Source: Bacteroidota bacterium (lineage in GTDB: Bacteria; Bacteroidota; Bacteroidia; AKYH767-A; OLB10). Taken from it: a stretch of 37,293 bases of DNA. Below the pieces are notes generated by a model. That model ran no database searches and was not told where the DNA came from. It saw nothing but the letters and a program-made list of their open reading frames with translations. The stretch spans positions 1 through 37,293 of the forward strand of contig CANFIN010000016.1 of assembly GCA_947447155.1 (NCBI GenBank). The letters run 5' to 3'. Of this stretch, positions 212-6,427 are shown piece after piece. Within the stretch, counting starts at the first letter, position 1. Every line of letters starts with the position of its first letter. The translations under genes were made by a program, and so were the position numbers.

Positions 212-267
212 CAAATATCTACTGCAATTATTACCAAATTGTTAATAGAACATTAAAGGATAAATAA
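212..267 (-). promoter_or_regulatory. Putative Pho box and -7-like box of the response regulator gene
   Basis: Read on the minus strand, four hexamers lie exactly 11 bp apart: TTATTT (267-262), TTAATG (256-251), TTAACA (245-240) and GTAATA (234-229). They are followed by GATATTTG (219-212), one base off the Bacteroidota -7 consensus TAnnTTTG. The half-sites start 48, 37, 26 and 15 bp before the -7-like box, the same distances as in front of the divergent porin gene. Bacillus PhoP binds TTAACA-type direct repeats with 11-bp periodicity, so autoregulation by the phosphate regulator is a reasonable inference. The region is very AT-rich, so chance similarity is possible. The middle of the spacer (about 268-490) shows nothing else I can support. 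Confidence 0.5.
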
Positions 268-492: not shown

Positions 493-548
493 TTAACATT
501 AAATTAATATTGGAGTAACCTGACGTTAACACTATCTTAATCTATTTG
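493..548 (+). promoter_or_regulatory. Putative Pho box (five 11-bp-phased repeats) upstream of the porin-pst operon
   Basis: Five heptamers occur with exact 11-bp spacing: TTAACAT (493), TTAATAT (504), GTAACCT (515), TTAACAC (526) and TTAATCT (537). A -7-like box TCTATTTG (541-548) matches TAnnTTTG except at one base and overlaps the fifth repeat. The first four repeats would then lie at about -58 to -19 from a start site near 551. Established knowledge: PhoB and PhoP bind head-to-tail repeats with 11-bp periodicity, and the Bacillus PhoP half-site is TTAACA-like. The fit to that pattern and the downstream phosphate genes make this a probable PhoB/PhoP operator for the whole operon. Confidence 0.7.
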
Positions 549-571: not shown

Positions 572-1996
572 ATGATAAAAGGCCTTAACAAATCCATCAC
601 ACTACTGCTTATTGTGGCAAGCACATTTACAAGCGCATCTCTTAAAGCTCAAATTGAGGATAGCTCATCATTAGCTACAAGAATTGAATTGGAGCCGGAA
701 GATACAACCATACAAACTGTAAACAAACTTTACAATGATATGGAGTATTTGAAACGGTTTCAAATTAGCGGATACATTCAAACTCAATTTCAATGGGCAG
801 ACTCTTCAGGTATTGCATCTGCATCTGGAGGTAACTTTAATACAGGAGTAGATAAAAGATTCTCAGTTAGAAGAGGTCGTTTGAAAGTTACTTATGATAA
901 ATATTTCAGCAAGGTTGTTTTCCAAACGGATATGACTGAAAGAGGTCTTCGCGTAGTAGAAGCTTACGCAAGTATAACAGAACAAAAGTACTATTGGGCT
1001 ACATTAACGGCGGGTATATTTAATCGTCCTTTTGGCTATGAAATCGAATATACTTCAAATATGAGAGAGGCTCCTGAGCGTGGCAGAATGTCAGGTAATT
1101 TATTCCCTAATGAAAGAGATTTGGGCGCTAAGTTAACCTTACAAGGACCGAAATTCGGGATTTGGAATTGGTTGAAATTAGATGTTGCCGTAGTTACTGG
1201 TGAAGGGTCACCAGACGCCAATGCAGGAATTTCCGATTTCGATAGTCATAAAGATTTAATATCTCACTTAACTGTAAATCGCTCTAATAGAAATGAAGAT
1301 ATTAAGTATGGCTTTGGCGTTTCTTATTATAATGGTGGAGTAATTTACAATGTAGACTCAATAAACTCAAAATATAAAGCAGTCGCATATACATTAAGTG
1401 ACAGTGCGGGAACAAACATATTCCATGCAGACTCTGTGAATCCGAGTGGCTACGCTCCTAGGACCTATTATGGAATTGATGGGCAATTACAAAAAGATTT
1501 TAATTGGGGAATTTTTACTTTGAAAGCTGAATATATTCAAGGAACGCATTCAAGTCAAGGTTCAACATCCAAAGCATTTCAATCTAAGCCAACCCTTGCT
1601 AATCCATTATATACGCGCAAATTCAACGGGGCTTATTTTGAATTAGCGCAGAATTTAAATCGTGCAACATCAGAAAATAAATTTTTAAATACATTGTATT
1701 CATTTATACCAGGACAGATTGTTTTAAAGTATGATTGGTATGATCCTAATACAGAAGTTAAAGGAGACGAAATTGGGCAAGGAGCATCAAGTACTTCTAA
1801 AAATCGATTAAAGACAAGTGCTACTGATTTAAGATATGATACCTTCGGTTTTGGAGTGGCTTACTTCTTAAGTAATAATGCAAAAATCCTTGCTTACTAC
1901 GACACTGTGAAAAATGAAACTTCAAAAAATCTAAGTGGATACACAAAAGATTTAAAAGACAATGTGCTTACTTTGCGCCTTCAATATAAATTCTAA
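572..1996 (+). CDS. Phosphate-selective porin (OprO/OprP family)
   Basis: A 474-residue protein with an N-terminal signal peptide (hydrophobic run LLLIVASTFTSASLKA, cleavage likely before QIEDSS). The mature part is rich in alternating aromatic beta-strand segments and ends in an aromatic strand (LTLRLQYKF), as outer-membrane barrels do. Segments such as RFSVRRGRLKVTYDKYFSKV and the GIFNRPFGYEIEYTSNMRE stretch are typical of the phosphate-selective porin O/P family. It would let phosphate or polyphosphate through the outer membrane. It is the first gene of the phosphate operon, 23 bp before pstS, directly behind the phased Pho-box-like repeats. The ATG at 572 gives a complete signal peptide. 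Specificity for phosphate rests on family and context. Confidence 0.85.
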   Translation: MIKGLNKSITLLLIVASTFTSASLKAQIEDSSSLATRIELEPEDTTIQTVNKLYNDMEYLKRFQISGYIQTQFQWADSSGIASASGGNFNTGVDKRFSVRRGRLKVTYDKYFSKVVFQTDMTERGLRVVEAYASITEQKYYWATLTAGIFNRPFGYEIEYTSNMREAPERGRMSGNLFPNERDLGAKLTLQGPKFGIWNWLKLDVAVVTGEGSPDANAGISDFDSHKDLISHLTVNRSNRNEDIKYGFGVSYYNGGVIYNVDSINSKYKAVAYTLSDSAGTNIFHADSVNPSGYAPRTYYGIDGQLQKDFNWGIFTLKAEYIQGTHSSQGSTSKAFQSKPTLANPLYTRKFNGAYFELAQNLNRATSENKFLNTLYSFIPGQIVLKYDWYDPNTEVKGDEIGQGASSTSKNRLKTSATDLRYDTFGFGVAYFLSNNAKILAYYDTVKNETSKNLSGYTKDLKDNVLTLRLQYKF

Positions 1997-2019: not shown

Positions 2020-2844
2020 ATGTTTAAAAAAATATTAGCAGTTGCTTTAATTTTAATTAGCAACCTATCATTCGGACAAAAAATCGTTATCAAAGGAAGC
2101 GATACAGTTTTACCGCTTAGTCAAAAAGAAGCGGAGCAATTTATGAAAACCAATAAAAGTGTAAACATCAGTGTTGTTGGAGGCGGATCTGGAGTTGGTA
2201 TTGCTGCATTAATTGATGGAAACACTAACATCGCAATGTCATCTCGTCCAATTAAGATGGATGAAAAGATCAAATTACAAGATGCTGGAAGATCGTACAA
2301 AGAAGTTAAAATTGCATTTGATGCTTTAAGTATAATTGTACACCCTGGAAATAAGGTTTCTCAATTAACAAGAGAACAAATCGAAGGCATCTTCACAGGC
2401 AAAATTAAAAATTGGAAAGAGGTAGGCGGGGATGATTTAAAAATTGTTGCTTACGCGAGAGAAACATCTTCAGGAACATATGAGTTCTTTAAAGAGCATT
2501 TATTAAATCGTAAAAACTATGCTGCAACATGTTTAAATATGCCAGCATCAGGAGCCGTTATTCAATCTGTAAGTCAGACGAAAGGCGCTATCGGCTATGT
2601 TGGATTAGCTTACCTTGATAAAAGTGTAAAAGCAATTGGCGTATCAACCGATAAAGGTAAAACATTTGTTAAGCCTTCCGTTGCTACAGCAAAAAACAAA
2701 ACATATCCAGTAGTTCGTCCATTGTTTTTCTACTACCCTACAAAATCAGAAGCATTGGTAAAACCTTTTATTGATTATATAATAGGTAAAACAGGTCAAG
2801 GCATTGTATCGCAAATAGGCTACATTTCTTTAGACGGAATGTAA
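2020..2844 (+). CDS. pstS: Phosphate ABC transporter, periplasmic phosphate-binding protein PstS
   Basis: A 274-residue periplasmic binding protein. A signal peptide (MFKKILAVALILISNLSFGQ) is followed at once by the family's first binding motif IKGSDTVLP (residues 24-32). Later landmarks are GGGSGVGIAALIDG (54-67), IAMSSRP (71-77), the hinge IIVHPGN (105-111), LTREQIEGIFTGKIKNW (116-132), the binding motif RETSSGTYEFF (147-157) and TKGAIGYVGLAYL (187-199). It captures phosphate and delivers it to PstC/PstA. The length fits the short PstS class. It follows the porin by 23 bp. The gap to pstC holds a strong hairpin that probably keeps pstS mRNA more abundant than the permease mRNA. There is no lipobox, so it should be soluble. 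Confidence 0.96.
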   Translation: MFKKILAVALILISNLSFGQKIVIKGSDTVLPLSQKEAEQFMKTNKSVNISVVGGGSGVGIAALIDGNTNIAMSSRPIKMDEKIKLQDAGRSYKEVKIAFDALSIIVHPGNKVSQLTREQIEGIFTGKIKNWKEVGGDDLKIVAYARETSSGTYEFFKEHLLNRKNYAATCLNMPASGAVIQSVSQTKGAIGYVGLAYLDKSVKAIGVSTDKGKTFVKPSVATAKNKTYPVVRPLFFYYPTKSEALVKPFIDYIIGKTGQGIVSQIGYISLDGM

Positions 2845-2861
2845 TTATCAAAACACTTGCA

Positions 2862-2900
2862 AATAAAAGCTGCATTTGACGATGCGGCTTTTATTAATTT
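2862..2900 (+). terminator. Stem-loop with U-rich tail between pstS and pstC (attenuator or partial terminator)
   Basis: A 14-bp stem with one G-U pair (2862-2875 with 2882-2895) closes the 6-base loop TTGACG. The 3' arm ends in CTTTTATT and is followed by AATTT. It begins 17 bases after the pstS stop codon and lies before every credible pstC start. Hairpins in this position are known in other pst operons, where they give more binding protein than permease. The tail is not a clean U-run, so read-through is expected, consistent with the same-strand genes that follow. Confidence 0.65.
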
Positions 2901-2922
2901 AATTAAACCATTACATTTGAGC

Positions 2923-4116
2923 GTGATTAAAAAAATAATTAATAAAACGATAGAAGGATTATTAATGTTGAGCAGTACGATTACTACACTCACTGTCTTA
3001 CTAATAGTCTTGTTTTTATTTAAAGAAGGACTTTCTGTTTTTAAAGAATCTCCTCTCGAAGGAGAAAATGTTATTGTGTTAAGTAATCAAAATAAAATAA
3101 CCCATCTTTCTTCTATAGATATAAAAAAAATATTTGACCAAGAAACTACAAACTGGAAACTTATTGGAGGTGCTAACGATTCAATATTACTTTTTACAAT
3201 TAATGATTTAAGTAATTACTTTTCCGAAGAAGAACTTGGACCTAACTTCGAATTTCTTCCTCAAAAAATGGATTCACTCATTGAAGCTAACCCGGGAATG
3301 ATTGCGATTTTTTCGAAAAAATATCTTGATAAAAATCACAAATCAAAAATCGCTTCAATAGATAATATTTCACCAAAATCTTTTTTATTAGGAAAGGAAT
3401 GGTTTCCAACTGCAAGTCCTGCCGTGCAGTTAGGTGTATTGCCACTCATTTTAGGAACTCTTTATGTTTCGATTGTCGCAATATTAATAGCGCTCCCAAT
3501 AGGCCTTGCAACTGCAATATATATTGCGGAAGTGGCGAACCCAAGAATACGGGCTATCTACAAACCTGTTATTGAACTTTTGGCAGGTATTCCTTCAGTA
3601 GTTTACGGATTTTTTGGATTAATTGTAATAGTACCCTTGATTCAAAAAATATTTGATTTGCCAGTAGGCGAAACTGGATTAGCCGGCGCAATTATACTTG
3701 CAATTATGGCGCTGCCAACAATAATTACAGTAACAGAAGACGCATTAAGAAACACTCCTAGATCAATGAAAGAGGCTAGCCTAGCGCTAGGAGCTACGCA
3801 ATGGCAAACTATTTACAAAGTTGTAATCCCCTACTCTGCATCAGGAATATCAGCTGCAGCAATTTTAGGGATTGGAAGAGCAATCGGAGAAACAATGGCA
3901 GTACTAATGGTGACAGGAAACGCAGCTGTAATGCCTCATTCATTACTTGAACCATTGCGAACAATTCCTGCAACTATTGCAGCAGAATTAGGCGAAGCTC
4001 CTGCAAATGGAATTCATTATAAAGCATTATTCGGACTAGGATGCATTTTGTTTATTATAACAATGTTCATCAATATCTGGGTTGAAGCTATTTCGAAAAA
4101 AAGAATAAAGCATTAG
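2923..4116 (+). CDS. pstC: Phosphate ABC transporter permease PstC with an extended PstS-like periplasmic loop
   Basis: An inner-membrane permease, 397 residues from a GTG start at 2923. The frame is open further upstream, but those codons fall in the hairpin after pstS, so I reject the longer form. A first membrane helix (TITTLTVLLIVLFLFKEGL) is followed by an unusual loop of about 115 residues, then the standard permease core with about five helices. The cytoplasmic coupling (EAA) loop SMKEASLALGATQWQTIYKV is present and should contact PstB. E. coli PstC is about 319 residues; the extra length is in the loop, which resembles the second lobe of PstS (see findings). ATG at 2965 is an alternative start but would shorten the first helix. 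It is followed 3 bp later by pstA. Confidence 0.93.
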   Translation: MIKKIINKTIEGLLMLSSTITTLTVLLIVLFLFKEGLSVFKESPLEGENVIVLSNQNKITHLSSIDIKKIFDQETTNWKLIGGANDSILLFTINDLSNYFSEEELGPNFEFLPQKMDSLIEANPGMIAIFSKKYLDKNHKSKIASIDNISPKSFLLGKEWFPTASPAVQLGVLPLILGTLYVSIVAILIALPIGLATAIYIAEVANPRIRAIYKPVIELLAGIPSVVYGFFGLIVIVPLIQKIFDLPVGETGLAGAIILAIMALPTIITVTEDALRNTPRSMKEASLALGATQWQTIYKVVIPYSASGISAAAILGIGRAIGETMAVLMVTGNAAVMPHSLLEPLRTIPATIAAELGEAPANGIHYKALFGLGCILFIITMFINIWVEAISKKRIKH

Positions 4117-4119
4117 TTT

Positions 4120-4986
4120 ATGCAAACAGATTTCAAAAAAAGAATTAGTCAGTCAATTGCATTCTGGACATTCAGAATACTTTCATTAATTGTAATGGGT
4201 GTTTTATTTTCTATTCTAGGGTTTATTTTTGTAAAAGGGATCGGCGTTGTAAATTGGGACTTTATTACACAAATGCCAGAAGATGGAATGACAAAGGGTG
4301 GAATTTATCCTGCAATCATTGGAACCTTATGTTTAATTTCCGGATCAATGCTTTTTGCTTTTCCCATTGGAGTTATGTCGGGGATTTACATTTATGAATA
4401 CACAAAAGATAGTTGGTATAGAAAATTCGTACAATTAATGACATCTAACTTGGCTGGAGTACCGTCAATTGTATTTGGACTTTTCGGTATGGCTTTATTT
4501 GTTAATAAACTTGGTTTTGGAGATTCTATTTTAGCAGGTTCGTTAACGTTAGGACTATTAGCACTCCCTGTTGTAATAAGAACCACTGAAGAAGCATTAA
4601 AAGCCATTGATAAATCTTATCGTGAAGCAAGTTATGCTTTGGGCGGAACTAAACTTCAAACAATTCGAAGAGTAACATTGCCGATGGCATTGCCCAATAT
4701 TATTACTGGACTTATTCTTAGTATTGGTCGAGTATCTGGAGAGACTGCACCTATTTTATTTACAGTTGCAGCTTACTTCTTACCCAAATTACCAACTAGT
4801 ATTTTTGATCAAGTAATGGCATTGCCCTATCATTTGTATGTTATCTCAACTAGCGGAACAAATATTAATGAATCAAGAGGGATGGCTTATGGTACAGCCG
4901 TTGTCTTAATTTTGATTGTTTTAATTCTGAATATTATTGCAAATCTTATCCGAAGATTTTTATCTAAAAAATACAAAACGAATTAA
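4120..4986 (+). CDS. pstA: Phosphate ABC transporter permease PstA
   Basis: A 288-residue inner-membrane protein with six predicted membrane segments, the first at about residues 18-38 ([20 protein letters not shown]). The segment [20 protein letters not shown] and the coupling loop [20 protein letters not shown], followed by [12 protein letters not shown], are typical of PstA. It pairs with PstC to form the phosphate channel driven by PstB. The ATG at 4120 begins 3 bp after the pstC stop codon, and pstB starts 7 bp after this gene, so the permease and ATPase genes are tightly coupled. Length and motifs are ordinary for the family. Confidence 0.95.
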
Positions 4987-4993
4987 CCCTATC

Positions 4994-5746
4994 ATGTATA
5001 AAATAGAAAGTAAAAATGTAAATCTTCATTACGGTACCTTCCATGCATTGAAAGGCATCAATATGTCTATTGAAAAAAATACCGTTACTGCATTAATCGG
5101 TCCTTCAGGGTGTGGGAAGTCGACATTCCTTCGTCTTTTTAATAGGATGAATGATCTAATTGATGGAGTAAAAATAGAAGGAGAATGCCTAATCGACGGC
5201 AAAGACATTTATAGCAAGTCAATTAAAATTGATGAACTGCGTAAACGTGTAGGAATGGTTTTTCAAAAGCCAAACCCTTTTCCTAAAACCATTTTTGAAA
5301 ATGTTGCCTATGGATTACGCGTTAATGGTATAACACACAAAAATTTTATTGAAGAACGTGTGGAAATTTGTTTGAAGCAAGCAGCCCTCTGGGATGAAGT
5401 AAAAGACAAGTTAAAAAAATCAGCAATGGCATTATCGGGTGGTCAACAGCAACGACTTTGCATTGCAAGAGCTCTTGCAATTGAACCATCTGTTTTACTG
5501 ATGGATGAGCCAGCTTCAGCATTAGACCCAATTTCTACTGCTAAAATTGAAGAATTGATTTATCAATTAAAAGAACTTTATACAATTATTATTGTAACTC
5601 ATAATATGCAACAGGCAGGAAGAGTCAGCGATAGCACTGCGTTCTTTTACCTTGGGGAATTAGTAGAGTTTGATTCAACAAAAAAAATATTTACCAATCC
5701 TTCAGAAGTAAGAACTCAAAACTACATCACTGGAAGATTTGGTTGA
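4994..5746 (+). CDS. pstB: Phosphate ABC transporter ATP-binding protein PstB
   Basis: A 250-residue ATPase from the ATG at 4994 ([14 protein letters not shown]). An upstream in-frame extension overlaps pstA and is rejected because the first beta-strand of the fold starts here. All key elements are visible: Walker [10 protein letters not shown] (residues 36-44), Q-loop FQKPNPFP (90-97), signature LSGGQQQR (147-154), Walker B VLLMDEP (167-173), D-loop SALDP and switch histidine VTHN (201-204). NPFP after the Q-loop is characteristic of PstB. It powers phosphate import through PstC/PstA. It sits 7 bp after pstA and 18 bp before phoU. Confidence 0.97.
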
Positions 5747-5764
5747 TAATTAAAACACAACATT

Positions 5765-6427
5765 ATGTCACATTTAAATATTGAACTACAGGACTTACGC
5801 TCGAACATTTTAGAAATGTTTGAACTTGTACAATCACAATTAATAAAGTCAAAAGAATCATTTATTCAACTTGACAAAGACTTAGCACGCGAAGTAGTGA
5901 TAAATGAAAAACGTGTTAATGGATTTGAATTAAAAATAGATAGAGACTGCGAGAATATTATTGCGCTATTTAATCCAGTTGCAATTGATTTACGATTTGT
6001 ACTTGCTTGCATGAAAATCAATTCTAATTTAGAAAGAATTGGAGACATCGCAGAAAGCGTTGCGAAATTCGTACTTAATTTCAAATTAGAGCCTGAAAAA
6101 GAATTATTGGAAACATCAAGGGTAATTGAAATGTTCGACATCTGCATTGAAATAATGACTGCTACCGCAAAATCTTTTGCTGACGAAGACACTAAACTTG
6201 CAAGAAGCATTTTCAAACTCGACGAAACTGTTGATGAAATCAACATTGAAGCAAACGACAAAATCGCAGCATTTATCCGAACACATTCCGATCGTATCAA
6301 CCAGAGCTTATACACTATTTCTATGATTAGAAAATTAGAGCGCGTAGGAGATCAATGCAAGAACATAGCGGAAGAAACAATATTCTATATTGAAGCGAAA
6401 GTTTTAAAACATAAATCACAAAAGTAA
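5765..6427 (+). CDS. phoU: Phosphate signalling protein PhoU
   Basis: A 220-residue, almost entirely helical cytoplasmic protein made of the two three-helix PhoU repeats. The repeat signature with clustered acidic and Asn/Arg residues appears twice: SNLERIGDIAESV around residues 87-99 and RKLERVGDQCKNIAEE around 189-204. PhoU binds metal ions through these acidic clusters and links the Pst transporter to the phosphate sensor kinase, turning the response off when phosphate is plentiful. It is the last gene of the operon, 18 bp after pstB, and is followed by a strong terminator. Confidence 0.95.
   Translation: MSHLNIELQDLRSNILEMFELVQSQLIKSKESFIQLDKDLAREVVINEKRVNGFELKIDRDCENIIALFNPVAIDLRFVLACMKINSNLERIGDIAESVAKFVLNFKLEPEKELLETSRVIEMFDICIEIMTATAKSFADEDTKLARSIFKLDETVDEINIEANDKIAAFIRTHSDRINQSLYTISMIRKLERVGDQCKNIAEETIFYIEAKVLKHKSQK

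Follow-up and report, generated by a model that had tools for sequence, protein, structure and literature searches.

A phased repeat array before the porin-pst-phoU operon as a probable Pho box of Bacteroidota

Our analysis of the window, as we call the whole 37,293-nucleotide stretch of Bacteroidota DNA studied here, suggests that an array of 11-bp-phased TTAACA-like repeats ahead of a porin-pst-phoU operon (Table 1) is a Pho box, i.e. an operator to which protomers of the divergently encoded regulator PhoB would bind in tandem, head to tail, and switch on phosphate-starvation genes. To this reading we assign a probability of roughly 0.93. We observe the array itself, its conservation and register throughout the phylum, a copy of it before phoB and a target set made up mostly of phosphate genes.

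An earlier note on this DNA had described five repeats starting at 493, 504, 515, 526 and 537 with 4-base linkers between the 7-base units, and this is exactly what the sequence reads throughout the array. It thus has the layout of a Pho box, namely two or more direct repeats of about seven conserved plus four less conserved bases at an 11-bp period. Runs of [T/G]TAA[C/T] with this period comprise, in the window, one of five (the array at 493-543) and one of three on the minus strand, the latter taken to be a second array before phoB; at periods of 9, 10, 12 and 13 no run above two was seen within the window. Chance periodicity might be suspected in an intergenic region this rich in AT, but among 400 windows simulated with a dinucleotide Markov model the longest period-11 run was three, never five, and none held a run above three. 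With a profile trained without the window the site scores 38.1, as against 2.4 for the 99th percentile of shuffled upstream regions. Because the comparative data below, which reveal phylum-wide conservation with a fixed register, already refute chance, we consider it the least probable of the explanations weighed here.

Table 1. Coordinates of the features in the window (registers are distances to TTTG; occupancies refer to homologous promoters)
Feature	Position	Strand	Remarks
phoB, first 64 residues, at contig end	1..194	-	remainder plus phoR on contig C105
-7 element GATATTTG, phoB promoter	212..219	-	
Second Pho box: TTAATGT 256-250, TTAACAA 245-239, GTAATAA 234-228	228..256	-	upstream of phoB; registers 41/30/19
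Pho-box repeat 1, TTAACAT	493..499	+	register -52; occupied in 32/58
Pho-box repeat 2, TTAATAT	504..510	+	register -41, most conserved; 53/58
Pho-box repeat 3, GTAACCT	515..521	+	register -30; 36/58
Pho-box repeat 4, TTAACAC	526..532	+	register -19; 31/58
Repeat-like 5, TTAATCT	537..543	+	overlaps -7 box; register filled in 7/58
Bacteroidota -7 promoter element TCTATTTG, porin-pst operon	541..548	+	7/8 matches to TAnnTTTG, n counted as match
Outer-membrane porin gene, first of operon	572..1996	+	no Pfam match itself; homologues precede pst across Bacteroidota
pstS, phosphate-binding protein	2020..2844	+	PBP_like_2, E 1.5e-43
pstC	2857..4116	+	N-terminal partial PBP-like region
pstA	4120..4986	+	
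pstB	4994..5746	+	start codon inferred
phoU	5765..6427	+	PhoU, E 2.1e-38

A search with the porin yielded 80 named loci from Bacteroidota genomes, most of which share the porin-pstSCAB-phoU order, and with the window included gave 81 upstream regions for comparison. (In the window's operon, PstC has an N-terminal extension that partly matches PF12849, a domain of phosphate-binding proteins, at residues 72-197.) When pairs of TAACA were pooled over these 81 regions, lags of 11, 22 and 33 were found in 23, 16 and 9 cases, respectively, and any other lag in at most two. Motif discovery upstream of related porins, a check that the earlier note had proposed, returned 11-bp-phased TTAACA repeats plus TAnnTTTGC; run free of priors, it gave cTTAACATt.actTAACA at width 18 and, at width 58, one ungapped motif with 97% occupancy that consists of four repeats followed by aATac.TTTGCa, the -7 element. 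Phased TTAACA repeats are hence present at the orthologous promoters: in a leave-one-out test, 57 of the 59 pst-linked porin promoters outside the window scored at least 8.7 (the 99th percentile of shuffles again being 2.4). Scores of pst-linked porins lie mostly between 16 and 44 and those of pst-unlinked paralogues are mostly negative, with two of the latter, L082 and L043, scoring above 20 as well. No box was found at the pst-linked porins L025 and L098 and a weak one at L070, in part because their start codons are uncertain. Conservation of the array in front of phosphate genes, in fixed register, thus extends across the phylum.

The register is counted to TTTG of the core promoter, which was recovered together with the repeats in the one ungapped 58-bp motif. 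In 58 promoters, repeats occupy distances of 8, 19, 30, 41 and 52 to TTTG in 7, 31, 36, 53 and 32 cases, the best off-register occupancy being 8/58, and over the 81 upstream regions the only TAACA-to-TTTG distances with at least five counts are 18, 29, 40 and 51. The box therefore sits just upstream of the core promoter element at the fixed distances 19/30/41/52, and judged by these occupancies the first four repeats of the window are typical and the fifth is not. The previous placement of the array just upstream of a -7 box holds for repeats 1-4 and has to be amended for repeat 5, which overlaps the element and, with polymerase bound, is probably not a PhoB subsite. Likewise, the proposal that five repeats make up the Pho box is supported as to the box, with at most four repeats being typical in most promoters. 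From the position of the repeats we infer that the PhoB array replaces the -33 contact.

For searches beyond porin promoters we relied on a sequence-only profile built from 40 of them in other species, the window excluded (its E-values are rough), because in a loose IUPAC scan of the window's genome the matches of the backward control outnumbered those of the real pattern. With this profile, the window site ranks first in its own genome (E 1.2e-7), ahead of one on contig C38 that precedes the gene for a secreted protein of 360 aa (E 2.4e-4) and of the phoB promoter (E 0.02); the same genome also gives many weak matches with E above 0.05. A match upstream of eutB (contig C10, E 0.04), which lies 101 bp away from the predicted gene start and has no further support, was treated as probable noise. 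Over 41 genomes the profile found 98 matches at E<=0.05 (best 1.6e-9) as opposed to 19 (best 0.009) for its reversed version, whose matches do not mark mostly phosphate genes. Downstream of the sites we find genes for porins (Porin_O_P), PstS, phoB, TonB-dependent receptors with CarbopepD_reg, PlcP-type Metallophos_2 proteins, another metallophosphoesterase, an Exo_endo_phos protein, a PhoX-domain protein, PhoU_div/DUF47 and an LTD protein; hence the box recurs across genomes at promoters of phosphate-starvation genes including pst, phosphatases and phoB. That orthologous porin promoters carry the phased array and that sites genome-wide lie mainly at phosphate genes both bear out the Pho-box reading of the earlier note.

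These searches also speak to phasing of the A-tract kind, whereby AT-rich repeats spaced near one helical turn would bend DNA and serve as a UP-like element without any specific regulator. Period and base content agree with such a view; against it stand the C conserved as fifth base of TTAACA, which is base-specific and no A-tract signature, the few sites found by a reversed profile of equal composition and period, and the pst-unlinked porin paralogues, mostly devoid of arrays. We therefore regard bending as very improbable, slightly less so than chance, and retain PhoB binding as our reading.

Coverage of the profile varies with the clade. Among Bacteroidia, 56 of 295 genomes have a match at E<=1e-4, a low share from which we conclude that some clades have a weaker or divergent form of the motif, for instance Bacteroidales with GTAACA-type repeats. 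Matches at E<=0.002 occur in 94 of 150 genomes of Flavobacterium, a genus recognised by means of S15 of PDB 7jil, a structure from F. johnsoniae. As contigs of training loci recur in some of the relative genomes (G005:C60 and L020 lie on one contig of 145,698 bp), porin-promoter matches in these relatives are not independent of the training set; those in the window's genome, at non-porin genes and in Flavobacterium are.

As for the genes marked by the box, the protein on contig C38 (L101:404-1483) has about 360 residues, is secreted and carries a Big_7 domain near its C-terminus, and boxes also precede the homologous starts at L141, L144, L149, L188 and L194, i.e. in congeners and one more distant genome. 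We consider it a candidate for a new phosphate-starvation protein. Several further boxed genes that lack Pfam domains (L192, L202, L209, L220) have homologues in F. johnsoniae, which we matched to lipoproteins of the FI/FII/FIII type.

The regulator that the earlier note had located at 1-194, at the end of the contig, is PhoB of a PhoB-PhoR pair. Contig C105 of this genome shares its last 129 bases with the start of the window, the frame continues, and the joined sequence encodes a PhoB-type regulator of 228 aa with a histidine kinase after it, so that across this overlap the pair is complete; in a related genome, a single contig holds PhoB (228 aa) and then PhoR (346 aa), divergent from porin-pst. 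A full-length congeneric regulator shows the Response_reg and Trans_reg_C domains of Pfam, and in the PDB the sequences nearest to the DNA-binding domain of a related PhoB (L038) come from E. coli PhoB, with 1gxp and 3t72 among them. A PhoB-type member of the OmpR family is thus encoded together with its PhoR kinase.

The second array, not mentioned in the earlier note, belongs to a minus-strand site (266-209) that scores 20.7 with a profile from whose training the window was left out. Two divergent boxes are likewise seen in the congeners G001, G003 and G004; alignment with G004, the only clean one within the genus (the porin sides of G003 and G001 align poorly), shows repeats that are mostly kept and linkers that vary. 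Elsewhere, boxes precede regulator genes at L020, L022, L027, L038, L042 and L056 and, more weakly, at L034, L040, L060 and L061; none was seen before the regulator gene in the examined loci where it comes after phoU within the pst operon. Since the second array precedes the divergent phoB, it suggests that phoB may be autoregulated via a box of its own.

Could the repeats be bound instead by a different OmpR-family response regulator, with phosphate genes forming only part of its regulon? Tandem repeats of 10-11 bp are common among regulators of this family, and further full-length response regulators with PhoB matches at E<=1e-25 are encoded in the window's genome. Arguing against them, however, phoB itself is preceded by the box, which is located in the interval from phoB-phoR to pst, the targets are mainly phosphate genes in many genera, and in B. 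fragilis PhoB binds its own pst promoter (512 bp) by EMSA and is needed for pst expression (PMC3547664). Another regulator, albeit the strongest competitor, therefore seems to us quite unlikely, and we infer that PhoB is the binding protein and acts as an activator. Under phosphate starvation, PhoR would phosphorylate PhoB, whose protomers would then fill successive 11-bp repeats on one helix face and in fixed register with the -7 element; standing at the position of the -33 element, bound PhoB would bring in RNA polymerase, an established ability of PhoB, and turn on expression of porin-pstSCAB-phoU, and the box on the opposite strand would let PhoB raise its own expression.

Published induction data bear on the sites in genome G557, which we take to be that of F. 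johnsoniae UW101. Genes for a glycosyltransferase, Porin_O_P, a kinase, a regulator, a TonB receptor and a lipoprotein follow one another there as in Fjoh_0541-0546 (PMC8115612), and its five best sites precede Fjoh_0545, a Pit-type DUF47 gene, Fjoh_0542, Fjoh_2478 and Fjoh_3414, where the gene adjoining the CCP_MauG gene is taken as PhoX-like Fjoh_2478 (without a Pfam match itself) and the choice-of-anchor lipoprotein gene as Fjoh_3414. Phosphate-starvation RNA-seq reported log2 changes of 8.0 for Fjoh_0545, 12.5 for Fjoh_2478, 10.3 for Fjoh_3414 and 5.4 for Fjoh_0541 (PMC8115612). Thus, three of the top five sites precede strongly induced genes; the Pit/DUF47 gene is not in the published table, and the site before Fjoh_0541 ranks eleventh. 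Fjoh_0542 (OprP; L299:2044-3339), a phosphate-selective porin, has one of the best boxes of this genome yet was not induced by phosphate starvation (PMC8115612). In six further blocks with 297 genes, ranking by box score placed two Endonuclease_1 genes at 1 and 4, the PUSII FecR leader at 2, the PUSI Metallophos gene at 6, an ECF sigma gene at 18 and a PI-PLC gene at 20; the rank test over these blocks (p = 9e-9) is optimistic because several genes were recognised after their high rank had been seen. Upstream of the F. johnsoniae PlcP gene, which is induced, we found no clear box.

Some loci encode PhoB domains that stand alone. Between pstS and pstC, L025 (8181-8471 and 8473-8856) and L031 (8264-8560) have a PhoB-like DNA-binding domain of 96-98 aa with a receiver-only protein adjoining, and this pair is a predicted split PhoB of inverted order within the pst operon; a full-length PhoB is encoded elsewhere in the genome of L025, too. 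Directly behind a Pho box we see DNA-binding-domain-only relatives of PhoB (L130:785-1156, L170:197-589) and receiver-only ones of 123-131 aa (L161, L176, L192, L143), in genomes that encode full-length PhoB as well. A rather doubtful, wider idea would be that the arrays define a Bacteroidota-wide class of activated promoters in which register-bound PhoB units replace the -33 element and, in several lineages, DNA-binding-only or receiver-only relatives encoded under the same boxes or in pst operons tune array binding, which would make PhoB split and modular.

Bacteroidota are major recyclers of phosphorus in soil, sea and gut, and what is known of their response to phosphate starvation comes from omics (PMC8115612) and one EMSA (PMC3547664), with no operator defined in the papers found. 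In the study of the F. johnsoniae regulon there is no mention of a Pho box or motif (PMC8115612), and neither a mapped PhoB site in the B. fragilis pst promoter paper (PMC3547664) nor a Bacteroidota box in the Pho regulon review (PMC4415409) appears in the portions available of these two. In agreement with the earlier note, which was not aware of a well-defined Pho box for the phylum, we found no such definition for Bacteroidota/Bacteroidetes, Flavobacterium or Bacteroides in a literature that was mostly open-access, so that its absence is no proof. With a Pho box that holds for the phylum and keeps a fixed register to the promoter, regulons could be predicted for uncultured organisms from their genomes, and the cooperation of PhoB with the Bacteroidota sigma factor could be probed directly by mutation; the box also points to uncharacterised secreted proteins, among them the FI/FII/FIII-type lipoproteins and the Big_7 protein of 360 aa, as members of the phosphate response. 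To our minds, the array extends a familiar type of operator to a further phylum, and we found no published description of it.

The Pho box of Bacillus subtilis PhoP consists of direct repeats of TT[A/C/T]ACA. With it the array shares the TTAACA half-site, the 11-bp period, several tandem copies, a regulator of the OmpR/PhoB family and a place at phosphate-starvation genes; it differs in phylum and in being coupled to the -7 element TAnnTTTG in strict helical register. The earlier note was right to place the half-site nearer to Bacillus PhoP than to E. coli, though it is also close to the cyanobacterial SphR box, tandem repeats of CTTAACCT with 3-bp linkers (PMC1906773). Here, the likeness covers the 11-bp period, a TTAAC core after C, often three copies, and pst and phosphatase genes, whereas the seventh repeat base is A in Bacteroidota (CTTAACAT) and C in SphR, and promoter architecture differs. 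The E. coli PhoB box (CTGTCAT) has 7 + 4 bp repeats on which PhoB effector domains bind in tandem, head-to-tail (PMC4415409). Consistent with the previous claim of a geometry common to both systems, the 7 + 4 layout is that of E. coli and the 11-bp period that of Bacillus; tandem repeats adjoining a core promoter element and a regulator whose DNA-binding domain aligns best to PhoB are further links to E. coli, from which the array departs in three of seven half-site positions and in using TAnnTTTG rather than a sigma-70 -10 element. The nearest known sequences to the array are the repeats of SphR and Bacillus PhoP.
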